Source of the DNA: Microcoleus sp. FACHB-672
Lineage (GTDB): Bacteria > Cyanobacteriota > Cyanobacteriia > Cyanobacteriales > Oscillatoriaceae
Length of the DNA stretch: 64,000 nt
Direction of reading: 5' to 3'
Assembly (NCBI RefSeq): GCF_014695725.1
Contig: NZ_JACJOU010000007.1
Coordinates: forward strand, 124,001-188,000
This document shows, piece after piece, positions 4,749 to 47,534 of the stretch. The notes below the pieces were generated by a model. It was given only the letters and a program-made list of their open reading frames with translations, was not told the origin of the DNA and ran no database searches. Positions within the stretch are counted from its first letter, which is position 1. Each line of letters starts with the position of its first letter. Both the position numbers and the translations under genes were made by a program.

Positions 4749-5153
4749 ATGGCATCAGCAAAACCAGAAACTTTAGAAGTTGCTCATCTGGCATTTCAAT
4801 ACTTTTCTCAAGGACTAGCAACCGGCAACTGGGAACCCTTCTTAGCTACGCTCACAGAAGACTTTACCTTTTGGTTTCCGGTGGGATTGTATAAGGGAGT
4901 GAACACCGGCAAAGATCGGGCGGCTGCTTTCTTCCAGTACGTTTCTGAGGCGTTTAGCGAAGGACTTACTGTTACAGTGGAACGTGTTACGAGTAACGAC
5001 ACAACGGTTGTTTTCGAGATTCACTCGCAGGGAAGTCTTAGGGGGAAATCTTACAGCAACAAGGCGGCAGTATCTTTAGATGTTCGCGGCAACCAAATTT
5101 GTGCTTATCGCGAGTATCTCAGTATTATCGTTCAACCTAGCAGTGCGGAATAG
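4749..5153 (+). CDS. NTF2-like/SnoaL-type protein
   Basis: A 134-residue single-domain protein of the NTF2-like (SnoaL/ketosteroid-isomerase) fold. It has an N-terminal helix (AHLAFQYFSQGLATGNWEPF), then TEDFTFWFPVG and alternating strands ending in AYREYLSIIV. Proteins of this fold bind small hydrophobic compounds or act as isomerases or polyketide cyclases. The catalytic residues differ between subfamilies, so no reaction can be named. ATG is preceded by GCAGGAAAC, a usable ribosome-binding site. It seems to be a single-gene unit, followed by a 420-base gap. Confidence 0.7.
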   Translation: MASAKPETLEVAHLAFQYFSQGLATGNWEPFLATLTEDFTFWFPVGLYKGVNTGKDRAAAFFQYVSEAFSEGLTVTVERVTSNDTTVVFEIHSQGSLRGKSYSNKAAVSLDVRGNQICAYREYLSIIVQPSSAE

Positions 5154-5277
5154 GTGGGGAACTTCTCAGGGGACTTTTTGGCAAATTGATGGATAGGGTT
5201 TGATTTATTTGCTAAAAAATTTATAAAAGCGCAAGGTGACGGCGTTTGCCTCTTTATTAACTTTTGCAAAATATCAT

Positions 5278-5305
5278 TGACACAAATAGACTAATATGTA
5301 GATAT
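5278..5305 (+). promoter_or_regulatory. Candidate sigma70-type promoter in the 5154-5573 gap
   Basis: A perfect TTGACA (5278-5283) is followed after 16-18 bases by AT-rich TAGATATT, a weak -10 match. It lies about 270 bases upstream of the pentapeptide gene and would give a long leader. Nothing else in 5154-5573 is recognised. Confidence 0.3.
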
Positions 5306-5573
5306 TGTGCCATATCCCTGCTGTTTCCTGATGGATTGCTGGCTGCCGACATTGAGAAGTGTTGAGATATCGTTGTCACAGCCCTGCACAAAAGTTAAGG
5401 TAAGGATGAGCGCAGGAGCGTTGAAAAGGTCAACGCACATAAAAAATATTTTGAAAGTGTTTTAAATCACTATCGGTATGTGTTTTCATCACAATCGATC
5501 TGAGATTTCAATCACCAGGCGCGACCGCAAAATGACTCATAGTATTAATTGTGAGTTTGTGGAGGGAGTGAAG

Positions 5574-6299
5574 ATGAAGCCTGGGATCTTGGCAACCGCA
5601 ATATTACTGATCGCAACCGGCACCGTGATGCCGGCTAACGCTGAGAATGCGGCACACCTGAAACAATTGCTTGAAACTAATGAGTGCGAAAGGTGCGATC
5701 TGAGCGGAATTCAGCTAGCAGGGGTTGACTTGCGCGGCGCGAATTTGAAAGAAGCCAATCTCAGGGGAACGATCCTTAACGGTGCGAACCTGAATGAAGC
5801 CAATTTGAATCAGGCGAACTTGGCGGGGGCGCAACTGCAGGGAACAACATTGGTTGGCTCGAAACTACATGGAGCCAATCTAGATGATGCGGATTTGAGC
5901 AATGCTAACCTCAGTATGGCCGGCATGGTGATTGCCAGCCTCAAGAATACCAACCTCACACAAACGAATCTGATTGGCGCAAATTTAGAAAGCGCCAAGC
6001 TTGCCGGTGCTAACCTCAATAAGGCTCATCAGTCTGTTGCCAACCTGGGGAACACAAATCTGATGGGTGGCAGCGTATACGCAATGGATGTCAGTGGCGT
6101 CAATCTGCGAGATGCCGATTTGACTGGGGCGAACTTAGCCGACGCAAATTTGAGAGGTTCCGATTTATCCGGCGCAAACCTTGTCGGTGCAAATTTGGGG
6201 AATGTCGATCTGAGAAATGCTTTGCTGCAAAATACAACAATGCCCGATGGTAAGCCGGCAGAATCTTCCGTAAGCTCGGTCAACGGTCATCAAGAGTGA
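5574..6299 (+). CDS. Secreted pentapeptide-repeat protein
   Basis: The ATG at 5574 is chosen because GGAGGGA at 5561-5567 sits 6 bases upstream and the product then begins with a clear signal peptide: Lys, a hydrophobic run, and a cleavage site after MPANA. An upstream in-frame ATG at 5478 would bury this signal. After a short helix and a CERCDLSG motif come about 30 A(N/D)LXX pentapeptide repeats, which fold into a right-handed quadrilateral beta-helix. The C-terminal 25 residues are non-repeat. Such proteins are abundant in cyanobacteria and mostly of unknown function; export to the periplasm or thylakoid lumen is inferred from the signal peptide. Confidence 0.85.
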   Translation: MKPGILATAILLIATGTVMPANAENAAHLKQLLETNECERCDLSGIQLAGVDLRGANLKEANLRGTILNGANLNEANLNQANLAGAQLQGTTLVGSKLHGANLDDADLSNANLSMAGMVIASLKNTNLTQTNLIGANLESAKLAGANLNKAHQSVANLGNTNLMGGSVYAMDVSGVNLRDADLTGANLADANLRGSDLSGANLVGANLGNVDLRNALLQNTTMPDGKPAESSVSSVNGHQE

Positions 6300-37871: not shown

Positions 37872-39173
37872 ATGGCAAACGAACAAGATAAAAACTTTGA
37901 GCAAAACGAACCTGTAAATTCATCGGCACCGGCATCTGAGAAGGCACACGCACCCGACACCGGCAGCCACAACCCAACCAGTCACTCTGAGAATCACTCG
38001 CTTTTTGATTCAATCGCTCAAGTAACCGCCGGCGTAGGGGAGGCAATTAACGCCGCAGCGCAAACCGGCCAAACGGTGATGCAGACAGCAGCCGGTGTGG
38101 GTGGGGCGATTGGCACAGTTGCAACTCAAGCCGGTCAAGCTGCTTTGACAACAGCGGCAGAGACGGCACAAACCGCAGCGAAACAAAGCCAAGAGATATT
38201 TGAGAAAGCGACACATGAAGCCGGTCGCGCTGCTAGCTTCATTGGGGATAACCCGGTGTTGCGACAAGTTTTGAAAGTGTTTCGGGCAGAATGGCTGCTG
38301 GGAATGGTGGGTCAAGTTGATACAGTGAAAGCTCAGGAAGCAGTCAGAAAGCTACAACAAGAGCATCCCAACGAAACTCCTAATGAAATCGCTCATCGGA
38401 TTATGTCAGAGAAAGCGATTCAAGCCGGCGGTGTTGGGTTAGTCAGCAGTCTTGTCCCTGGAGTCGCACTGGCGCTGTTGGCAATCGATTTGGCAGCGAC
38501 AACCCAACTACAAGCGGAAATGATTTATCAGATCGCCGCCGCCTATGGCATGGATCTACAAGCACCGGCGCGTCGCGGCGAAGTGATGGCGATTTTTGGG
38601 CTGTCCCTCGGTGGCAGTCAAGCGATTAAACTTGGCTTGGGTGTGCTGAGAAATGTGCCCCTAGCCGGTATGGCGATTGGTGCCGGCACCAATACGGTGA
38701 TGCTTTACACCTTGGGGTTTGCAGCGTGCCGGTTCTATGAAGCTAAAGTCGATCCCATGAGTTCGCCGGCAGTCGCGCAAGCTATCCAGAAACAAAGCGA
38801 AGAATATCTAACCGTGGCGCTGGCGCAGCAAAGCATTATGGATCAAATTTTGGCACAGACAATTTTGGCAAGTAACCCAAACAAATCTTGGGAAAATATG
38901 TTGCCTGAGTTAAAGGCATTAAATGTAAGCCCAACTTCGTTAGAAGTGATGACGGCTGAACTGAAATCGCCCCAACCGTTAGACCGGCTGGTTGAAAAGC
39001 TCAACCGAGACTTTGCCTTGCCTTTGCTGGTGAAATGTTACACGCTTTCGCAACACGATGGCACAATAAACCCCGAAGAAGCGCAGTTACTGGAAACCAT
39101 TGCTTCCAAGTTTGAGATTGATTTAAAAGCAGTTGAAGCGACTGTTAAATCTAATAACTCTAAAGCCGGTTGA
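37872..39173 (+). CDS. DUF697/YcjF-like membrane-associated protein with TerB-like C-terminus
   Basis: The 433-residue protein begins with an acidic, low-complexity 45-residue tail, then an Ala/Gln/Thr-rich amphipathic stretch (residues about 45-120, TAGVGEAINAAAQTGQTVMQ and following) that could coil or lie on a membrane. The core has SLVPGVALALLAIDLAATTQ and IFGLSLGGSQAIKLGL, a pair of hydrophobic segments of the DUF697 type. The end (PLLVKCYTLSQHDGTINPEE) is TerB-like, a helical metal-binding module of stress proteins. AGGAGGAATAAAATT precedes the ATG. The function is unknown; the similarity to the DUF697 part of the GTPase at 49613 is of interest. Confidence 0.75.
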   Translation: MANEQDKNFEQNEPVNSSAPASEKAHAPDTGSHNPTSHSENHSLFDSIAQVTAGVGEAINAAAQTGQTVMQTAAGVGGAIGTVATQAGQAALTTAAETAQTAAKQSQEIFEKATHEAGRAASFIGDNPVLRQVLKVFRAEWLLGMVGQVDTVKAQEAVRKLQQEHPNETPNEIAHRIMSEKAIQAGGVGLVSSLVPGVALALLAIDLAATTQLQAEMIYQIAAAYGMDLQAPARRGEVMAIFGLSLGGSQAIKLGLGVLRNVPLAGMAIGAGTNTVMLYTLGFAACRFYEAKVDPMSSPAVAQAIQKQSEEYLTVALAQQSIMDQILAQTILASNPNKSWENMLPELKALNVSPTSLEVMTAELKSPQPLDRLVEKLNRDFALPLLVKCYTLSQHDGTINPEEAQLLETIASKFEIDLKAVEATVKSNNSKAG

Positions 39174-39293
39174 AGCTTAAACTTCTTGCAATTAGGCTAT
39201 AAATTTGCAATGCAATCGATTAGGCTGTGCCTCACACCTTGCTGAATTCATATCAAGAGGTACAGCCTTGTTAAAAATGCAATTATAGCAATC

Positions 39294-40067
39294 TTAAGCT
39301 GCAACTAAAGCTTCTTGTCCATGCCGGCGTAACACATCCATGAGTTCATCCCGGTAGTCGTGGAATATAGAATGGCGTTTAACGTTATAGCTGCGTTCAG
39401 GTAGTTTGATCGTCATTTCTTTTCTGACTGTCCCAGGACGCGTCCCCAAAGCATAGATGCGATTCGCAAGGAAAACCGCTTCTTCCACATCGTGGGTAAT
39501 CATAAAGATTGTGATATTTGTGCGCTGCCAAAGGTCTAACATAAATTCGTGCATCGACTCCTTAGTATGGATATCCAGCGCGCCAAAAGGTTCATCCATT
39601 AACAGCACTTTGGGTTCCGCAACCAACGCCCGCGCAATTGCCACGCGTTGCTTCATCCCACCTGATAATTCTTTCGGTAATGTCTTCGCAAAATTAGTCA
39701 ATCCTACGACATTTAAGTAATAGCTTGCCTGCTCACGCCGCATCTTTTTCGGCACACCTTGCAGCTTGAGTCCAAACTCAGCATTTTCCTGCACAGTCAT
39801 CCACGGATAAAGTGTGTAATGCTGAAATATCATACCCCGATCAGGCCCAGGCCCAGTAACTGCTTCTCCATCAATTGTAACTTCTCCAGATGTGGGCATA
39901 TCAAGGCCGGCAATTTGTCGCAGCAGAGTAGACTTACCCGATCCCGACGCGCCCACCGCACAGATAAATTCACCCCGCTTAATCGTCATATTAATGTCCT
40001 TCAGGACAACTAACGAGCCATTTTTGGTATCAAAGTGCTTGTGCAGATTTTTAACTTGCAAATACAT
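39294..40067 (-). CDS. ABC transporter ATP-binding protein (SsuB/TauB type), putative guanidine importer
   Basis: A 257-residue ABC ATPase: Walker A GASGSGKSTLLRQIAG near residue 41, Q-loop FQHYTLYPWMTV, signature LSGGMKQR, Walker B VLLMDEPFGALD and the H-loop ITHDVEEAVFLA. It belongs to the nitrate/sulfonate/taurine branch. It is last in the gdmH-hypA-hypB-transporter gene line on the minus strand. The gene order matches the Synechocystis guanidine locus (sll1077 to sll1082), which supports guanidine as the substrate. That assignment is inference from context. Confidence 0.88.
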   Translation of the reverse strand: MYLQVKNLHKHFDTKNGSLVVLKDINMTIKRGEFICAVGASGSGKSTLLRQIAGLDMPTSGEVTIDGEAVTGPGPDRGMIFQHYTLYPWMTVQENAEFGLKLQGVPKKMRREQASYYLNVVGLTNFAKTLPKELSGGMKQRVAIARALVAEPKVLLMDEPFGALDIHTKESMHEFMLDLWQRTNITIFMITHDVEEAVFLANRIYALGTRPGTVRKEMTIKLPERSYNVKRHSIFHDYRDELMDVLRRHGQEALVAA

Positions 40068-40149
40068 GAGTGAAATCTCCTTAATTAGAACAAACTTTGC
40101 AATTGATAAACTTGAGCAGTTGTTAATAAAATTAGGACGGCAACAGAAA

Positions 40150-40995
40150 CTATCGTTGTTGACTTGTCCACCGACAAGAAACTTTCAAAAAGTATTGAAA
40201 CAGCAAATCAAATGTCAACCCAATTACTCCAATTACAATCAATCCCACAAAAATTTCATCGGTTTTAAGAAATCGACCGGCTACGCTGATCCGCCGGCCT
40301 AGACCTTCTGATGCCGCAATGAGTTCAGAGACAATGACTAACTGCCAAGCGGCTGCTAAGTTAATGCGACACGCATCAAGAATTCCCGGCAAAACATGGG
40401 GGAAAATGACCTGAAGTAAGGCTTGTAAGCGGTTTCCTCCTAACATGTAAGTCGCTTCAATCAAATCTTTGGATACGAATTTTACAGTATCCATGACCAT
40501 CAGGGTGTTAAAGAAAAAGGCACCGATAAAAATAAGAGTAATTTTTGGTTCTTCTCCGATACCTTGATACAAAATTAACAGCGGAATAAAGGCAGGGGCC
40601 GGCATATAGCGCATCAACCCGAACAGCGGTTCTAGTAAGGCACGAATGCTGGCAAAACTGCCCATCAATACCCCTATGGGGATGGAAAAAACTGCCGCTA
40701 AAATGAACCCGACACCAACGCGCCACAGACTTGCAACAGTATCCTTAAGGAGTTCGCGAGTCCTCCACAGCCGGCCAAATGCTTCAAGAACTTGAGCCGG
40801 CGAGGGTAAAAATTTAGGATCTATATTCCCAAATGTAGTAACCAACCACCACAGCAGCAGGGGCACCCCAATCGAGGTAAAAAGTAATGCTGTATGGAGC
40901 GGTTTGGGAATGTCTTCAGCAAGTTGCCAGAAAACAGTGGAATTTAGTTTTTTTGATTGGAGAAAGTCTCGAATCGATTCAGAATTTTGATTCAT
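40150..40995 (-). CDS. ABC transporter permease, putative guanidine importer
   Basis: A 281-residue inner-membrane permease of the BPD_transp_1 family with about six helices. It has GVLMGSFASIRALLEPLFGL, MPAPAFIPLLILYQGIGEEP and the EAA loop with its conserved glycine (EATYMLGGNRLQALLQVIFP). Such permeases form a dimer through which the bound substrate passes. It lies between the lipoprotein and ATPase genes in the same direction, with gaps of 131 and 82 bases. One dispersed repeat copy (41057-41088) sits in the 131-base gap. Confidence 0.88.
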   Translation of the reverse strand: MNQNSESIRDFLQSKKLNSTVFWQLAEDIPKPLHTALLFTSIGVPLLLWWLVTTFGNIDPKFLPSPAQVLEAFGRLWRTRELLKDTVASLWRVGVGFILAAVFSIPIGVLMGSFASIRALLEPLFGLMRYMPAPAFIPLLILYQGIGEEPKITLIFIGAFFFNTLMVMDTVKFVSKDLIEATYMLGGNRLQALLQVIFPHVLPGILDACRINLAAAWQLVIVSELIAASEGLGRRISVAGRFLKTDEIFVGLIVIGVIGLTFDLLFQYFLKVSCRWTSQQR

Positions 40996-41056
40996 GACTA
41001 ATTTTTACGAGGGCAAGGAAAGGAATATATCGATTTTTTGCAAAGGTTGATTTTTT

Positions 41057-41088
41057 CAACCGCAGATGCACGCAGGTAAACGCAGATA
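41057..41088 (+). repeat. Dispersed CGCAGAT-type repeat, copy 3
   Basis: CAACCGCAGATGCACGCAGG then TAAACGCAGATA, between the substrate-binding and permease genes. Copies are at 11705-11738 and 27244-27276. Confidence 0.7.
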
Positions 41089-41126
41089 ATATATGTGTGG
41101 GAGGTTAAGGATGGGATTGGATGCTT

Positions 41127-42176
41127 TTAGGATTTTCTAAATTTTTCAGCGTAGGCTTTAACAAAGCGATCATCAAACAGTCGGCTGGTGTCTGGTTGAT
41201 TATTGGCTAGCCCTACTTCTCTGAGGAATTTGCTCATTTCTTGAGCAGCAAATTGTAAGGAAGTCAAATCGTTACCCGGTTGAAAAGCGGTCAAATTTTC
41301 CTCTATTGTGAAGATCCGAGTGCCGTCTGCATACTGCCGGTATTCGTCAACAGAAACCCCTGCTCGTTGCGCCATAATTTCATAAGATTTCTCTAGATTT
41401 GCCTCCATATATTCCAAGGTAGCAAACCAAGAATCAACTAATGCTTGAACGCGATCAGGATGTTCATCGACAAATTTGCGGGTGAATACCAGATGATCGG
41501 AAATTGCGCCGGTAAAATCTTTGGAACTAAATAGTTCTTTGCTTCCCGAACGCTTCAATGCTTGCGTGGTAAAAGGAGCAAACACTGCTGTTGCATCAAC
41601 TTGTTTTGCCACAAATGCTGCGGCTGCTTTACCTGTTTCTAGGGGAATAAACTGAATGTCTTGGGGTGATAAACCGGCTTTCTTTAGCCCCAACAACAGC
41701 AGGAAGTGATCGACTGTGCCTTCTTCTGCGGCAACTTTTTTTCCTTTTAAGTCAGCGATTGAGTTAATACCCTCGCGGACAATCACCTTATCATTGCCGG
41801 TGGAGTTATCGTTAACCAGGACAATTACTTGATCCGCGCCACCGGATACAGAGTTAACCGTATCTCCAAGCGTTTGGCTGTTGGCATCAATTTGGCCGGC
41901 TGTCAGTGTGCTGATAGATTCCAAATACCCATCAAACCATTTCAAATCAACTGGAACACTGTTTGCCTGAAAAATTCCTTGTTCTTGAGCAACTTGCCAA
42001 GGAAACCAACCGGGCCATGCGCTGAATCCCAGACGGACGCTGCCGGCACTTACTGAGGCCGCCGTCTCGGTTTCGGTGGTTGTTTTGATGTAGATTGCCG
42101 GGTTAACGCAACCGACAACGAACGTTAGTGTGACAAGAAAAAGGATACAGAAAGATAGAGGTGATCGCACTCTCAT
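41127..42176 (-). CDS. ABC transporter substrate-binding lipoprotein, putative guanidine importer
   Basis: A 349-residue lipoprotein. The N-terminal signal ends in a lipobox (FVVGC, Cys 23), so the mature protein is lipid-anchored on the periplasmic side of the plasma membrane. The body is an NMT1/SsuA-type binding protein: VRLGFSAWPGWFPWQVAQEQ, LTAGQIDANSQTLGDTVNS, IADLKGKKVAAEEGTVDHFL and ATAVFAPFTTQALKRSG. AGGAG lies 5 bases before the ATG. It is separated from hypB by 281 bases, so it may have its own promoter as well as riboswitch read-through. Substrate by context: guanidine. Confidence 0.87.
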   Translation of the reverse strand: MRVRSPLSFCILFLVTLTFVVGCVNPAIYIKTTTETETAASVSAGSVRLGFSAWPGWFPWQVAQEQGIFQANSVPVDLKWFDGYLESISTLTAGQIDANSQTLGDTVNSVSGGADQVIVLVNDNSTGNDKVIVREGINSIADLKGKKVAAEEGTVDHFLLLLGLKKAGLSPQDIQFIPLETGKAAAAFVAKQVDATAVFAPFTTQALKRSGSKELFSSKDFTGAISDHLVFTRKFVDEHPDRVQALVDSWFATLEYMEANLEKSYEIMAQRAGVSVDEYRQYADGTRIFTIEENLTAFQPGNDLTSLQFAAQEMSKFLREVGLANNQPDTSRLFDDRFVKAYAEKFRKS

Positions 42177-42457
42177 AGCATCTCCTAGTGCAGAGATTGG
42201 TTGGGAGTTTTCAGCAGTTTGTTATTCGCTGTTAGCAAAGATAATTTTTAACAGAGCGGTTAACTATGTGTAGCAGGTAAAGCCGTCACCGCTTTGTTTC
42301 TTGTGATACAAAACCTCCAGATAGTTAGAAAAAGTTGAAACTCAATATCGTTCAAGCTTTTACCTTTTCTGCTCTTTAAGTTTTGTGATAAATGCTGTTA
42401 GTGAGGGACTGGGTGAGCATTTTGCCCACCCCAACAACACTGGGGTTGGTATTTTCT

Positions 42458-43168
42458 TCAGCAAACGCCTGAAAGTTGCTGCTGTTGAGCGGTTGATGAT
42501 TGAGCAAGCTGAGAGCGCACCCAATCAAACCAGGCGTCTAACCCTTCTCCAGTTTTTGCAGAAACGGGAATAATGGTGACATGAGGATTCATTTGTCGCA
42601 CATTTGCCACAATCAGATCCACATCAACATCTAGATGGGGCGCTATATCCATCTTGGTAATTAATAGACAATCCGCTTCTTGAAACATCACCGGGTATTT
42701 TAGCGGTTTATCTTCACCTTCTGTCACACTTAACAGGGCAACTTTCAGGTGTTCGCCTACTTCAAATTCAGCAGGACAAACGAGATTTCCCACATTTTCT
42801 ACCAATACTAAATCAAATTCTGAGGGATTATATTCATGGGAGAGCCGGTGAATTCCGCCGGCAACCATTTTAGAATCCAAATGGCAAGATCGGCCCGTGT
42901 TAATCGCAATCACCGGCACGTTATATTTTCGCAGGCGATCCGCATCTAATTCTGTCGTCATATCGCCTTCAATGACTGCTATTTTGCACTCCTCAGTTAA
43001 AACCGCAAGTGTTTTTTCCAGCAGTGCAGTTTTGCCGGCACCGGGACTGCTCATAATATTCAAACAAGTAATTCCCCACTCATCGAAATGGGCGCGATTA
43101 TGATCAGCCCCTTCCTGGTTAGCATGGAGCAAATTAATTCCTAAAGCAGCGTCAAAAGTTTGGTGCAT
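42458..43168 (-). CDS. hypB: Nickel-insertion GTPase HypB, dedicated to guanidine hydrolase
   Basis: A 236-residue GTPase: P-loop [15 protein letters not shown] (near residues 40-50), [39 protein letters not shown] (metal-site Cys within the GTPase domain), [11 protein letters not shown] and the terminal [12 protein letters not shown]. The N-terminal histidine-rich stretch of many HypB proteins is absent. HypB delivers nickel to [NiFe]-hydrogenase, but this window has no hydrogenase genes. Its place beside gdmH fits a role in loading nickel into the guanidine hydrolase, which is established for the Synechocystis HypA2/HypB2 pair. Confidence 0.93.
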
Positions 43169-43215
43169 AATTCAGCATTTGGAGTTTAAATGAATAGCGA
43201 TAAATGGCAACGCTC

Positions 43216-43599
43216 TTACTCTTCGCATTTCGCGGAAATAACCACATCAGGTTGCGAATATTCAATGCGTTCGATTTTCAATTCTCGTCCTGAACGAATA
43301 TCATCCATTGGAGACTGACAGGTTGGGCAAGCATATTGAATGCCAATTTCAGGACGATATTCCTGCCGGCATTGATGGCAGAAAGCAATCAACGGCGTTT
43401 CTTCAATGACTAACTCTGCGCCATCTAGAAAAGTATTGCGGGTTTGAACTTCAAAGGCAAATTGCAAACTCACAGGTTCAACACAAGTAAATTGACCAAC
43501 TGTAAGATGAACCTGGGAAATTTTGGGGCGTTCTGGTTGTTCCTTCCACCATTTCCGCACCGTTACAATGAGCGCTTTGGTCATATCAGTTTCGTGCAT
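43216..43599 (-). CDS. hypA: Nickel chaperone HypA
   Basis: The start at ATG (complement of 43597-43599) gives MHETDMTKAL; HypA proteins begin MHE because His2 binds nickel, so the TTG start four codons upstream is rejected. The zinc site is FCHQCRQEY and YACPTCQS (two CxxC pairs). The 127-residue protein receives or passes nickel together with HypB. The gene follows gdmH by 66 bases and precedes hypB by 47 bases on the minus strand, so the three are one transcript controlled by the guanidine riboswitch. Confidence 0.93.
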   Translation of the reverse strand: MHETDMTKALIVTVRKWWKEQPERPKISQVHLTVGQFTCVEPVSLQFAFEVQTRNTFLDGAELVIEETPLIAFCHQCRQEYRPEIGIQYACPTCQSPMDDIRSGRELKIERIEYSQPDVVISAKCEE

Positions 43600-43665
43600 G
43601 GATATACCCAAATCTAATGCAAATATTGTAGTTATAGAGACGCAATTGCTCGCGCCTCTAAACTT

Positions 43666-44871
43666 TTACGCCCATTCAACAAGTTCTGGTTGCGACTCTG
43701 GAAAAATATAGGCCGGTTTCTGCTTCCGTGGCAGTTGTCCCGACAGCACTAAATGAGCCATTGTGTCACAAATTACGCGCGTTGCCATGAGGGCAGTAAT
43801 ATCGCTGATGTCATAAGGTGGAGAAACTTCCACAACTTCCAAACCGCAAACCGGCGCACGTTGCACAATTTTTGCTAACAAAGCTAAGGCTTCACGAGGT
43901 AGTAATCCACCCGGTTCTGGCCAACCTGTACCAGGGACAAATCCCGCATCAATGCAATCAATATCAAAGCTGATGTAGACGCAGTCAGTGCCGTCTAATG
44001 CCCGTTCTAAGGCGAAATCGACTGCGGCATCAATTCCTTTTTCTACGATGTCGGTAACGGTAAGAATGTTGGTAGCGCGTTCCCGACAAACTTTTACACC
44101 CTGACGAGGAACCTGCCAGCCGCCAATTCCCAGTTGTACCAAGTTTTTCGCTGGGGCATTTTTCATGTTGGTGGCATGAAACCAAGGGCAAGTGTGCATC
44201 CGTTCGTCGAGGTCAGTTTCTTGGGTGTCGGCGTGGCGATCAAAATGAATAATGCCAACTTTTTTATCCCCTAAATGCCGGCAAATCCCGCGTACTGTTG
44301 GGAAACCAATCGAATGATCGCCGCCTAAAATAATCGGAAATGCACCGGAACTAAAGATGTGAGCGATACCTTTAGAAATCTGATCAAATGACTTTTCATT
44401 ATTAGCGGGAATCGTGAAAATATCCCCAACATCGCAAAGCGTAATTTGTTCGCGCAGGTCAACGCCTAACTCGAAGTTGTAGGGGGTATAAAGTGCAGAA
44501 ATCCGCCGAATTCCTTGAGGGCCAAATCTTGTACCGGGACGATAGGTCGTTCCCGAATCATGAGGAACACCGACAATTGCAACATCATATTCTCCAACCT
44601 TCCGCACATCTTCTACATAAGGTGCTTTGAGGAAGGTGTTGATACCGGCATAATGAGGCAGTTCACCGCGAGAAAATGTGGGAATACTGCGATCTTGAAT
44701 ACTTGACGCTGCTTCCAAGCCGTATTCCAGCCCTTTTGATACCTCTTGCTGCCAGCCGGTTAGGGGCAATCTCGCTTCCAATTCTAAAGCCCGTTGCGCT
44801 TCCGATGCAGTGTGCCCGTTATTTGGTGATGGGCTTTGAAACATGGGGTTTTCTGAAGGATTTTCAGTCAT
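43666..44871 (-). CDS. gdmH: Nickel-dependent guanidine hydrolase (arginase/agmatinase superfamily)
   Basis: A 401-residue ureohydrolase, about 80 residues longer than agmatinases because of N-terminal and middle extensions. Metal-binding motifs are present: GGDHSIGFPTVRG, HFDRHADTQETDLDERMHTC and YISFDIDCIDAGFVPGTGWP. Guanidine hydrolases of the Synechocystis Sll1077 type share the DRHxDTQETD and PWFHATNMKNAP segments, and convert guanidine to urea and ammonium with nickel at the site. The riboswitch directly upstream, with hypA and hypB and the transporter downstream, makes this assignment strong. ATG at the complement of 44869-44871; the ribosome-binding sequence is weak (AGGG). Annotation tools often label it agmatinase. 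Confidence 0.93.
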   Translation of the reverse strand: MTENPSENPMFQSPSPNNGHTASEAQRALELEARLPLTGWQQEVSKGLEYGLEAASSIQDRSIPTFSRGELPHYAGINTFLKAPYVEDVRKVGEYDVAIVGVPHDSGTTYRPGTRFGPQGIRRISALYTPYNFELGVDLREQITLCDVGDIFTIPANNEKSFDQISKGIAHIFSSGAFPIILGGDHSIGFPTVRGICRHLGDKKVGIIHFDRHADTQETDLDERMHTCPWFHATNMKNAPAKNLVQLGIGGWQVPRQGVKVCRERATNILTVTDIVEKGIDAAVDFALERALDGTDCVYISFDIDCIDAGFVPGTGWPEPGGLLPREALALLAKIVQRAPVCGLEVVEVSPPYDISDITALMATRVICDTMAHLVLSGQLPRKQKPAYIFPESQPELVEWA

Positions 44872-44932
44872 TTAGATGCCCTAGAAATTTTCAAAACAAC
44901 AAAATGAGGAATTTGCGCTCGTCAACGCCGAA

Positions 44933-44983
44933 AGCCCAGGAGAACAAGCTCAGTCTCAGCGACTGGTACGTTCCTCCCGGGCT
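44933..44983 (-). promoter_or_regulatory. Expression-platform hairpin of the guanidine riboswitch
   Basis: On the transcript AGCCCGGGAGGAAC (complement of 44970-44983, part of the conserved aptamer 3' end) can pair with GUUCUCCUGGGCU (complement of 44933-44945). No U-run follows, so it is not a classic terminator. Competition between this stem and the aptamer core is the likely switch. Confidence 0.6.
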
Positions 44984-45130
44984 TTTATCCCGCCGTGTGA
45001 CTAGCTAATCCCTCACAAAAAACTATAAGTTTTGGAGAAGCCAGTTTACCTCTCTCGGACCAGCATTTAAGCAGCTGCAATTTGAAATTTGATTTGTATT
45101 GCGCGGCTCAAACCGGAACCCTAGAGGCCA
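44972..45130 (-). promoter_or_regulatory. Guanidine-I riboswitch (ykkC class) upstream of gdmH
   Basis: Read on the minus strand, the three invariant blocks of the ykkC/guanidine-I motif occur in the right order: CUAGGGUUCCGG (complement of 45113-45124), GGUCCGAGAG (complement of 45052-45061) and ACACGGCGGGAU-AAAAGCCCGGGAG (complement of 44974-44998). Variable stems separate them. The aptamer binds guanidinium and turns on downstream genes. It lies about 100 bases before the ATG of gdmH, and the downstream hypA, hypB and ABC genes follow the same direction. Confidence 0.95.
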
Positions 45131-45234
45131 TTAAATTTTTACTTCCTATCTATGAGTTCTCTCAAAGTCGTTGAAGTTTTGACTGTATTAACTACCGCCT
45201 TGGATAACTTCTGAGTGCTTTTAAGAGTCTCTCC

Positions 45235-45250
45235 TGTACTTTCTAGTACA
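45235..45250. promoter_or_regulatory. Candidate NtcA-binding box TGTA-N8-TACA
   Basis: TGTACTTTCTAGTACA matches the extended NtcA palindrome (GTA-N8-TAC with flanking T and A). It lies about 105 bases upstream of the riboswitch 5' end. I do not see a -10 hexamer at the usual 20-24 base distance on the gdmH strand, so the function is unproven. The rest of 45131-45617 is AT-rich, with no gene. Confidence 0.45.
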
Positions 45251-45617
45251 TAAATTAGCAATGAGTTTATTTAAAAAAAGTATCGTAAGTTACCAAATAT
45301 CCGTAAATACTTGATTTTGTCTTCACTCGAAAATTTTCTGACACATGGTACAGCATTCGCTCGTCAATTATTGGTCGGGTTAAGATTTTTTTATAGTTGA
45401 ATATTTGCCTGTAACTGCAAAACGTCGCTGAAGTCAAGACAATTAATGAATTTAGTAAATACTTTTAAAATTCTACTTCCTTGAGTTTAAATCACGACGA
45501 ACAAATGGGTGAAAACCCCTGTAAACCTTATTCGCGAAAAAAAACAACTTTTGCAACAAGTCTATTGACAAATTGCTCAAGTTGTTAAAAGAAACTAACG
45601 ACAGATGTACCGCCTGC

Positions 45618-47534
45618 TTAAACTTGTTGCAGATAAGATTCAAACCGCTGCTGCAATTGTTCCACCGGCAGATTTTGAGTCCAATATTCCACCAAAGCAT
45701 GACCGAAAGCCCAAGCGTTGCGCTCTGGTGCAGCCGTGTTTTCTAGCAACACCGGCCAAAGCGATCGCAAGTCAAAATTAAGCAAATTACTCTCACCGGC
45801 ATTCAACAGCGAGAACAAATCATAAGCCATTTGCAGCTTCCCAATTACAACCGGCAACTGCTCCACAGGAATTTGCTCTGCTAGCAGATACGCTAAATTT
45901 GGAGAGCCGGTTGACATGGTGGAAATGAACTGAAGAACCGGACTTTTCAACAGTGCGGTGAGTCCCTGTGTTGTTGCCATTTGGAATGTGTAGCGGTCGA
46001 TAATTTTGCTGGCAGCAACCGTGCGGGCTTCCAAATTACGCAAAAAGCGGGCAAGGCGAAGTTGTTTAGCCGGCGAGATTTCTTGTACCAATGCTTGCGA
46101 TATCGCCTCTGCATTCCAAGCAGTTCGACCTGTTTTGAGATCGCCGGCGACAATGGGCAGAATTAAATTACAGAAATCACTCAGAAGTTGAGCGCGGTAT
46201 TCCGTCGCTTCCCGAATTGCTTTTTCTTTTGGGCGATCACCCCATTGCCAATCATAGGGCGGTTCCCATTCGCGTACCGGGCGCAGACGATCCACTTGGG
46301 TAACGAGTACAATTGCCGGCAAATCTTTAACTGCCGTTTTTAGGTCTTTGAGAAAGTCCACATCCATTTGCAGGGCGGGATCTAAAGCCGGTGTGACGAG
46401 TAGCAGCAGATCCGCGCCGGTGGCAAACTCCAGCACTTCATCCCGCAGATCCCCACGGTTGACTTGTTCGTAACCGGGTGTATCCCAAAGGATGAGCGTT
46501 TCACCGGCCTCACTTTGCCAGCGATAATTCTGTATTTTGTCTGTACTTGGTAATACATCAACCGCTGCTTTATCTGCCCGAAACAGCGTGTTAATTAAAC
46601 TGCTTTTCCCAGCGCCGGTGCGCCCTGCCAGCAAAATACTGATGGGTTTTTGCTCAACTTCCTCCACAGGTTCAGCTTGTGAGAGGATTTCTCGCAGAGT
46701 TTGGGTTTGGGCTTTCGGCAGTGCCGGTGTGGCAACGGCAAATTCCCCAGGAAGCACCGTACTGCCGCCGTAGAGGGTGATTGCTTGCCGGCAGAGGTTC
46801 CGCAAGGCAGCTTCCCGAAGCGACTGACCCAAATTTACCAATAATTGCTGAGTTGCCTGGTTCCCGGAACGTTGACTCGCCACTTTTGCCACCGCTACTG
46901 CCGGGTTTAAAAACCATTGTGCCCAGTTCCACACTTGCATCAATTTGCGAGCGGATGGCTCTAGTTTGCGATAGACTTCGTAAGCTTCGTAAGCCTGCCC
47001 AACCGTAACTTGATTGAGGGCAGGAGATAATTTTTGCATCCACCGATCCAAGTCATCCACGGTTCCCCGAATTAGGGCATAAGCCTGGGGAACGTAAATA
47101 GAAAGTAGGGGATACTTAACTTCAGGATGATAAACATGGGCGACAGCGGCAACAAGTTCCTGACATCGCTGCCAAAATATCGCCCAATCTTCCCAAATTG
47201 GCGGATCGTTTTGTGCTGTTGTTACGATTTCTTGAAGTGCAGTTTCTGCTCGATTTATTGTGTCGTTATCGGCTAACTGCGCGGTTGAATCTCCAATCGG
47301 AGAAGCCAATTCTTTGTTAACTTCCGCCATGACGGCTTCCATCTGATCGAAAGCCGGTTTCGTCCATTTAACCAGTAGCCACCGCCAGCCAACTAATAGA
47401 ACGGTAACTACAGCCCAGATCCAGTTAATTCCCCACTCGTGGATTTGTCTGCCGGCTGCTACCAGCAAGAAACCAACGATCATTGCGATTGGCGTTGCCA
47501 ATACAATCCATTGCCACAGCTTTAATCGCACCAT
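45618..47534 (-). CDS. Membrane-anchored GTPase (Era/dynamin-like)
   Basis: A 638-residue protein with two N-terminal transmembrane helices (residues about 10-28 and 36-54), a helical stretch to about 280, and a P-loop GTPase domain: ISILLAGRTGAGKSSLINTL (G1), LPSTDK, LILWDTPGYEQV (G3) and IVLVTQVDRLRPV (G4). A helical region with DUF697-like character follows to the C-terminus. It belongs to the cyanobacterial family of membrane GTPases without known cargo; a role in membrane dynamics or stress is inference. ATG is the complement of 47532-47534. It is divergent from the deaminase cassette that begins about 110 bases away. Confidence 0.85.
   Translation of the reverse strand: MVRLKLWQWIVLATPIAMIVGFLLVAAGRQIHEWGINWIWAVVTVLLVGWRWLLVKWTKPAFDQMEAVMAEVNKELASPIGDSTAQLADNDTINRAETALQEIVTTAQNDPPIWEDWAIFWQRCQELVAAVAHVYHPEVKYPLLSIYVPQAYALIRGTVDDLDRWMQKLSPALNQVTVGQAYEAYEVYRKLEPSARKLMQVWNWAQWFLNPAVAVAKVASQRSGNQATQQLLVNLGQSLREAALRNLCRQAITLYGGSTVLPGEFAVATPALPKAQTQTLREILSQAEPVEEVEQKPISILLAGRTGAGKSSLINTLFRADKAAVDVLPSTDKIQNYRWQSEAGETLILWDTPGYEQVNRGDLRDEVLEFATGADLLLLVTPALDPALQMDVDFLKDLKTAVKDLPAIVLVTQVDRLRPVREWEPPYDWQWGDRPKEKAIREATEYRAQLLSDFCNLILPIVAGDLKTGRTAWNAEAISQALVQEISPAKQLRLARFLRNLEARTVAASKIIDRYTFQMATTQGLTALLKSPVLQFISTMSTGSPNLAYLLAEQIPVEQLPVVIGKLQMAYDLFSLLNAGESNLLNFDLRSLWPVLLENTAAPERNAWAFGHALVEYWTQNLPVEQLQQRFESYLQQV

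Follow-up and report, generated by a model that had tools for sequence, protein, structure and literature searches.

Among described systems, the closest to the locus reported here is the sll1077-1082 operon of Synechocystis sp. PCC 6803, in which gdmH, ghaA, ghaB and the genes of an ATP-binding cassette (ABC) importer are reported to follow a Guanidine-I riboswitch (PMC8390497, PMC10094980, PMC8400943, PMC12186494). Previous studies indicate that Sll1077 releases urea from guanidine, that Synechocystis degrades guanidine and uses it as a nitrogen source (PMC8390497), that sll1077-1082 is repressed by ammonium, and that GhaA and GhaB are nickel-delivery proteins of GdmH (PMC10094980); an earlier suggestion was that these chaperones serve an "agmatinase" (PMC8400943). 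The comammox locus of Nitrospira inopinata likewise combines a Guanidine-I riboswitch with a guanidinase from the same clade, but as described it carries an APC permease instead of the ABC importer, with no nickel chaperones nearby (PMC11410670). Here, we analysed a 64,000-nucleotide stretch of Microcoleus sp. FACHB-672 (contig NZ_JACJOU010000007.1, positions 124,001 to 188,000; hereafter the window), which is part of a 6.37-Mb cyanobacterial assembly. The window contains the same six genes in the same order behind a Guanidine-I riboswitch; its locus is the Synechocystis operon in another cyanobacterium, and the operon itself is already known. The species is different, and the genome has no hydrogenase and one HypA, unlike Limnospira, for which a hox locus is reported besides the cassette (PMC8400943). 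We conclude that the window locus is almost certainly a nitrogen-scavenging operon for free guanidine.

Open reading frames and family models place all six genes on the minus strand, namely gdmH, hypA, hypB and those for the binding lipoprotein, permease and ATPase of the importer, and this agrees with the original prediction of a one-strand, ordered guanidine locus. In a comparison set of 80 named related loci, the nearest guanidinase, from a Microcoleus vaginatus metagenome-assembled genome (L002), is 99% identical. The complete six-gene cassette recurs in the same order and on a single strand in 46 of the 80 loci, and hence the arrangement in the window is not a product of chance. The incomplete loci are cut by contig ends, are rearranged (L051, L060, and L072), or show no importer within the stretch covered; in Picosynechococcus PCC 7117 (L051), the cassette is rearranged with gdmH last. 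Identity of gdmH to that of the window is always 85% or more among the related loci, and that of the importer falls into roughly two classes (~70% and more; ~50-67%), which possibly reflect importer replacement between lineages.

The gene gdmH (43666..44871, minus strand) encodes a predicted nickel-dependent guanidine hydrolase of 401 residues, assigned by family models, PDB-chain matches, active-site residues and a tree. A phmmer search against PDB chains gave Synechocystis GdmH (7esr/7oi1) as the best match with 774 bits (E 3e-232), followed by the N. inopinata guanidinase (9fek) with 594 bits (E 1e-177), while the remaining 58 rows among the matches listed (70 matched) score 176 bits or less. 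The residues reported to determine guanidine specificity are T97 and W305 in Synechocystis and T105 and W313 in N. inopinata, accompanied by six metal ligands and a histidine and a glutamate proposed for catalysis (PMC11410670). The window enzyme carries the equivalents of both decisive specificity residues, T109 and W317, as well as those of the six metal ligands and the proposed catalytic pair (H186, D211, H213, D215, D303, D305, H226, and E348). In an alignment of 80 guanidinases, comprising the window and 79 of the 80 loci (L058 was omitted for its short frame), the threonine and the tryptophan are present in every sequence and the full ten-residue pattern in 79, and the tryptophan occurs in none of 18 arginase-family paralogues. 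The 34 rows of the enzyme tree were the window, 12 loci out of the 79, the 18 cyanobacterial paralogues and three guanidinases that are more divergent, the characterised enzymes not being among them; the tree splits the guanidinases from the paralogues with a support of 100/99, a split recovered in every one of the 200 bootstrap trees. One row has a very long branch, the second arginase-family protein of the genome itself, which scores 291 bits as an agmatinase. The phylogeny against agmatinases that had been proposed as a check thus sets the window enzyme with the guanidinases, and the assignment to the Sll1077 type stands. Judging from its close match to the characterised Sll1077, the enzyme would hydrolyse guanidine to urea and ammonium.

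Two nickel-chaperone genes follow gdmH. The hypA gene (ghaA; 43216..43599, minus strand) encodes a nickel chaperone of the guanidinase type, as placed by family models and clade. Its start is probably ATG 43599 rather than TTG 43611, because the conserved HE is preceded by methionine in 62 of 76 guanidinase-linked HypA frames, the window included, and by valine or leucine, from the possible starts GTG and TTG, in 14. The protein has the N-terminal MHE and the four zinc cysteines of HypA, C74, C77, C91, and C94. The hypB gene (ghaB; 42458..43168, minus strand) encodes a nickel-inserting GTPase that matches TIGR00073 with 314.2 bits against a cut-off of 121.2 and is the only match above the cut-off in the genome; the next match, probably UreG, is encoded ~6.5 kb away from the urease gene. 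The genome has a single HypA and a urease alpha-subunit gene, and no NiFe hydrogenase was found in it by a search that was positive in 5 of 14 control genomes.

We then counted HypA in a class sample of 290 cyanobacterial genomes with a completeness of 90 or more. With a threshold of 324 bits or more, 121 genomes have a guanidinase, a few of these being broken or partial; the lowest intact guanidinase is 74% identical, and fragments rank below it, followed by paralogues with at most 36% identity. An 88-residue guanidinase remnant with stops (G003) was scored absent. HypA matches at E 0.001 occur in 171 genomes (153 above the cut-off), and all were counted; NiFe hydrogenase matches occur in 105 genomes at E 0.001, and only the 100 above the cut-off were counted. 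In 281 of the 290 genomes, there are as many HypA as guanidinase and NiFe hydrogenase taken together. Two HypA are present in 48 of the 49 genomes with both clients (one in the other), one HypA in 68 of the 72 with only the guanidinase (two in four), one in 48 of the 51 with only the hydrogenase (none in two, two in one), and none in 117 of the 118 with neither. The exceptions are G036, G144, G190, G221, G055, G127, G219, G267, and G058, and 276 genomes would fit if five weak hydrogenase matches (G004, G028, G088, G178, and G202) were counted. Across the 190 hydrogenase-free genomes, Fisher's test gives 2e-52, uncorrected for kinship, and 72 of the 73 that have HypA also have the guanidinase. 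Within a single genus (g99), all 17 listed HypA-bearing genomes fit, and they represent three client states.

The HypA proteins themselves fall into two types. A tree of 56 rows, with 32 guanidinase-linked proteins (the window, 15 of 75 loci, and 16 from other genomes) and 24 others, separates a guanidinase-linked clade, which includes the window, from the other clade with a support of 100/100; every one of the 200 bootstrap trees shows the split, in a bootstrap that was not yet fully settled. The two types (78 versus 24 aligned rows) differ at seven nearly fixed columns and at an eighth, a one-residue insertion, and have the zinc cysteines in common; the alignment took only rows in which MHE was found, and the frequency of MHE there is partly by construction. 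The second HypA of two hydrogenase-negative genomes, L123 and L125, belongs to the non-guanidinase clade. The claim that hypA and hypB are dedicated to the guanidine hydrolase is therefore strengthened by the genome count and by the clades.

The importer is complete, with adjacent genes for a substrate-binding lipoprotein of the SsuA/NMT1 family (41127..42176), a TauC-like permease (40150..40995; PF00528) and an SsuB/TauB/NrtD-like ATPase (39294..40067; PF00005), all on the minus strand, just as had been predicted. The earlier caution about its substrate was fair, and comparative evidence now supports guanidine, the lipoprotein being a probable guanidine-binding protein. No close structure was found for it by sequence, the best match reaching 63 bits. 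A search of plasmids with the binding protein gave 375 records, and we examined 12 regions among the 60 listed, one of them cyanobacterial; the Acinetobacter baumannii matches H5-H7 were among those left out. The 11 non-cyanobacterial regions score 207 (L091), 182 (L092), 164 (L093), 159 (L094), 134 (L096), 129 (L099), 128 (L098), 118 (L097), 112 (L101), 103 (L095), and 95 bits (L100). Among these, L091, L092, L093, L094, and L096, together with L098, are "urea" (guanidine) carboxylase-type clusters: a carboxylase is annotated in L092, L094, and L096; UAAP1 and UAAP2 are present in L098 and, by NCBIfam, in L091; and L093 contains allophanate hydrolase, an SMR exporter and a 2-oxoglutarate (2OG) oxygenase. 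A Guanidine-I aptamer directly precedes the binding-protein gene in four of the 11 (L091, L092, L096, and L098), and none was found at the gathering score in L093, L094, or the other five. L095, with 34% identity in the aligned part, equalling L094, lies in a histidine-use cluster. Clusters of the carboxylase type, for example that on a Cupriavidus basilensis plasmid (L092), resemble the window locus in having Guanidine-I ahead of an ABC importer (permease, ATPase and a related binding protein), but their chemistry is different, with a carboxylase and UAAP1/UAAP2 rather than a nickel hydrolase.

In the binding-protein tree, which included the window with 18 of the 52 guanidinase-linked rows, six carboxylase-type rows, five others and two unassigned, the guanidinase-linked proteins alone form a group at 99/98. 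Four columns, W80, Y84, S87, and D105, are each shared by 51 of the 52 cyanobacterial rows and by all six carboxylase-type rows, the odd cyanobacterial row being L012 at W80, Y84, and S87 and L058 at D105; L090 has all four, and L099 has the serine. These positions are leads only as to substrate binding. L012 was considered as another guanidine importer and rejected; its ABC genes have a metallo-beta-lactamase gene and a glutamine-synthetase-like gene as neighbours, for which reason it was excluded from the tree's binding-protein groups. Two lone binding-protein genes were also seen. In L090, a Chondrocystis plasmid, a guanidine-type gene (4848-5894) stands beside a ferric-reductase-like gene, with no permease, ATPase or riboswitch within the 11 kb covered. 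In L099, from Ilyobacter, a c-di-GMP-I riboswitch (4778-4853) precedes the gene, near HD-domain phosphohydrolases. From the company that the binding protein keeps, we infer that the substrate of the window importer is guanidine.

The leader of the operon contains a Guanidine-I (ykkC) aptamer at 44972..45135 on the minus strand, which matches the full length of the RF00442 model (positions 1-107 of 107) at 67.9 bits, above the gathering score of 63 (E 6.3e-10). No other Rfam match in the window reaches the gathering score, and RF00442 matches nowhere else in the genome. The covariance search thus upholds the riboswitch of the original prediction, but the upstream end assigned to the locus, 45130, has to move, as the aptamer extends to 45135 and the unit to about 45293, at the promoter described below. 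No second riboswitch was found in the gap between hypB and the binding-protein gene, with 39000-46000 searched at E up to 1. Of the 80 loci, 69 have a riboswitch upstream of gdmH: a regular expression for the aptamer's 3' part identified 59, and Rfam a further 10 out of the 21 that it left; L041, one of the 59, has no Rfam match at the gathering score. In L072, one of the 11 loci without a riboswitch before gdmH, a Guanidine-I riboswitch (1082-1202) stands directly before the ABC importer; gdmH begins ~1.2 kb past the importer end with none found for itself, this being the only riboswitch found at the locus. The rearranged L051 shows no Guanidine-I match at the gathering score within its 19-kb locus.

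Pairing between 44931-44944 and the aptamer's 3' terminal part can form a terminator-like hairpin with a 14-bp stem at 44931..44985 (minus strand), whose 5' arm is the aptamer 3' end; the 140-nucleotide fold has an energy of -47.7 kcal/mol and a z score of -2.98. In 47 of 60 leaders, the window counted, the longest stem includes the aptamer CCCGG, compared with 2-9 after shuffling the post-aptamer sequence (20 shuffles). The hairpin is likely the expression platform, and by analogy with the known riboswitch class the aptamer would bind guanidine and switch.

Upstream of the aptamer, we found a probable nitrogen-control promoter, which the original prediction had missed. Canonical NtcA-activated class II promoters are described as having GTAN8TAC near -41.5 and a TAN3T -10 box (PMC3898017). 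The window shares this layout (45293-45252, minus strand), with a putative NtcA-binding site of exact consensus, GTAACTTACGATAC (GTA-N8-TAC; 45280..45293), followed after 22 nucleotides by a putative -10 box, TAATTT (45252..45257). Compared with the canonical promoters, that of the window precedes a metabolite riboswitch and has a second GTA-N8-TAC palindrome (45236..45249, minus strand) over the predicted transcription start; a counterpart of this palindrome exists at almost equal distance in the closest relative, L002, and it is possibly a repression site or a chance occurrence. NtcA itself is encoded in the genome (392 bits against a cut-off of 245). We examined 54 leaders, the window and 53 relatives with a 5' aptamer motif and enough sequence, uncorrected for kinship. 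GTAN8TAC occurs within 250 nucleotides upstream of the aptamer in 37 of them, against a mean of 2.0 and a maximum of 6 in 200 dinucleotide shuffles; 13 other palindromic triplets reach at most eight leaders, a spacing of nine none, and a spacing of seven nine. Behind the NtcA-type sites, a TTGNTA box is commoner than the strict TAN3T, and the combined motif GTAN8TAC-N17..21-TTGNTA is present in 30 leaders, including the window (shuffles: mean 0.025, maximum 1). In segments of the same loci with a GC content of 0.40 or less, the frequency of GTAN8TAC is 10% and that of the combined motif 1.9%, true sites counted, and GTAN8TAC is present in the hypB-binding-protein gap of 5 of 46 relatives. The promoter reading fits the repression of sll1077-1082 by ammonium (PMC10094980). 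We met no paper stating the NtcA site or the HypA count in the literature covered, which is incomplete, and we claim neither as unpublished. A gene for a Dynamin-like/MMR_HSR1 GTPase lies farther upstream on the same strand (45618-47534); it is probably outside the operon because the promoter and the leader intervene.

Other explanations of the locus were weighed against these results. The enzyme might be an agmatinase or another ureohydrolase whose riboswitch context is incidental, and it does pass the NCBI agmatinase model, by 3.5 bits (177.8 versus a cut-off of 174.3), which is why the agmatinase label is usual for GdmH and bears out the warning of such mislabelling. However, the two guanidinases far exceed all other listed PDB matches, the specificity residues are in place with a tryptophan that the paralogues lack, and the genome has a separate gene that scores as an agmatinase; we regard this reading as having practically no chance of being right. 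The chaperones, in turn, may not be dedicated and may also serve another nickel enzyme, such as urease, as their families are named for hydrogenase maturation and some members for urease. Against this stand the lack of a NiFe hydrogenase in the genome, the near-complete lack of HypA in sampled genomes having neither of the clients counted (guanidinase and hydrogenase), and the separate HypA clades, which together render shared service very unlikely. It is comparably improbable that the operon serves to detoxify guanidine made in the cell, its importer carrying sulfonate, taurine or urea. The ABC proteins do score against the SsuA/TauC/NrtD families, and loss of sll1077 is reported to make Synechocystis guanidine-sensitive (PMC8390497), but a detoxifier would not import. 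Moreover, the five best-scoring of the 11 plasmid regions are carboxylase-type clusters, Guanidine-I stands directly ahead of the binding-protein gene in four of the 11, the riboswitch of L072 heads the importer itself, and the NtcA-type promoter links the operon to nitrogen hunger.

Several observations weigh against nitrogen scavenging through this importer and this double control. The full ordered cassette is absent from 34 of the 80 relatives, some of these being contig ends. The binding protein passes the sulfonate SsuA-family model TIGR01728 (237.9 versus 163.5 bits), a subfamily model that does not fix the substrate, and fails the urea-carboxylase-linked TIGR03427 (151.7 versus 333.9 bits); the guanidine-linked binding proteins form one group in the best tree at only 84/45, with long branches. 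In L013 and L046, where the riboswitch precedes gdmH, a sodium:solute symporter follows hypB in place of the ABC importer, so that the importer type is not fixed. The exact GTAN8TAC is absent from 17 of the 54 leaders, and the strict TAN3T at a spacing of 20-24 accompanies only 10 of the 37 sites, against 14% at random positions. No clear U run is present behind the hairpin stem of the window, and termination is therefore less sure than the aptamer. The symporter genes (PF00474; L013:8221-9708 and L046:11658-13160) are themselves candidates for an ATP-free guanidine importer.

Taken as a guanidine-scavenging operon, the locus would work as follows. Under nitrogen shortage, NtcA would activate the class II promoter at about 45252-45293, as its conserved sequence suggests. 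Bound guanidine would stabilise the aptamer in the leader RNA; its 3' strand, otherwise the 5' arm of the terminator-like hairpin, would then be held and transcription could continue. The ABC importer would take guanidine in, and GdmH, presumably supplied with nickel by its dedicated HypA and HypB as the Sll1077 match and the chaperone count suggest, would convert it to urea and ammonium. The urease, whose alpha-subunit gene lies elsewhere in the genome, would release ammonia from the urea. With an NtcA-type promoter ahead of the riboswitch, the operon probably requires nitrogen hunger and guanidine together. We further consider it reasonably probable, with less assurance than for the scavenging role itself, that this two-input AND gate, with NtcA acting at initiation and guanidine at elongation, is conserved in many cyanobacteria, together with a separate, non-interchangeable HypA lineage and a HypA number equal to that of the nickel clients needing one, guanidinase and NiFe hydrogenase.

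The comparison thus adds support for the chaperones and the importer and a probable nitrogen-control promoter. That binding proteins of two unlike guanidine pathways are related is the strongest argument from sequence here for guanidine transport by "sulfonate" importers. Where a cyanobacterial genome has no hydrogenase, HypA strongly indicates guanidine use, and its annotation as a hydrogenase-maturation protein should be avoided in such cyanobacteria. The NtcA promoter before the riboswitch, if true, would be a natural two-signal switch.

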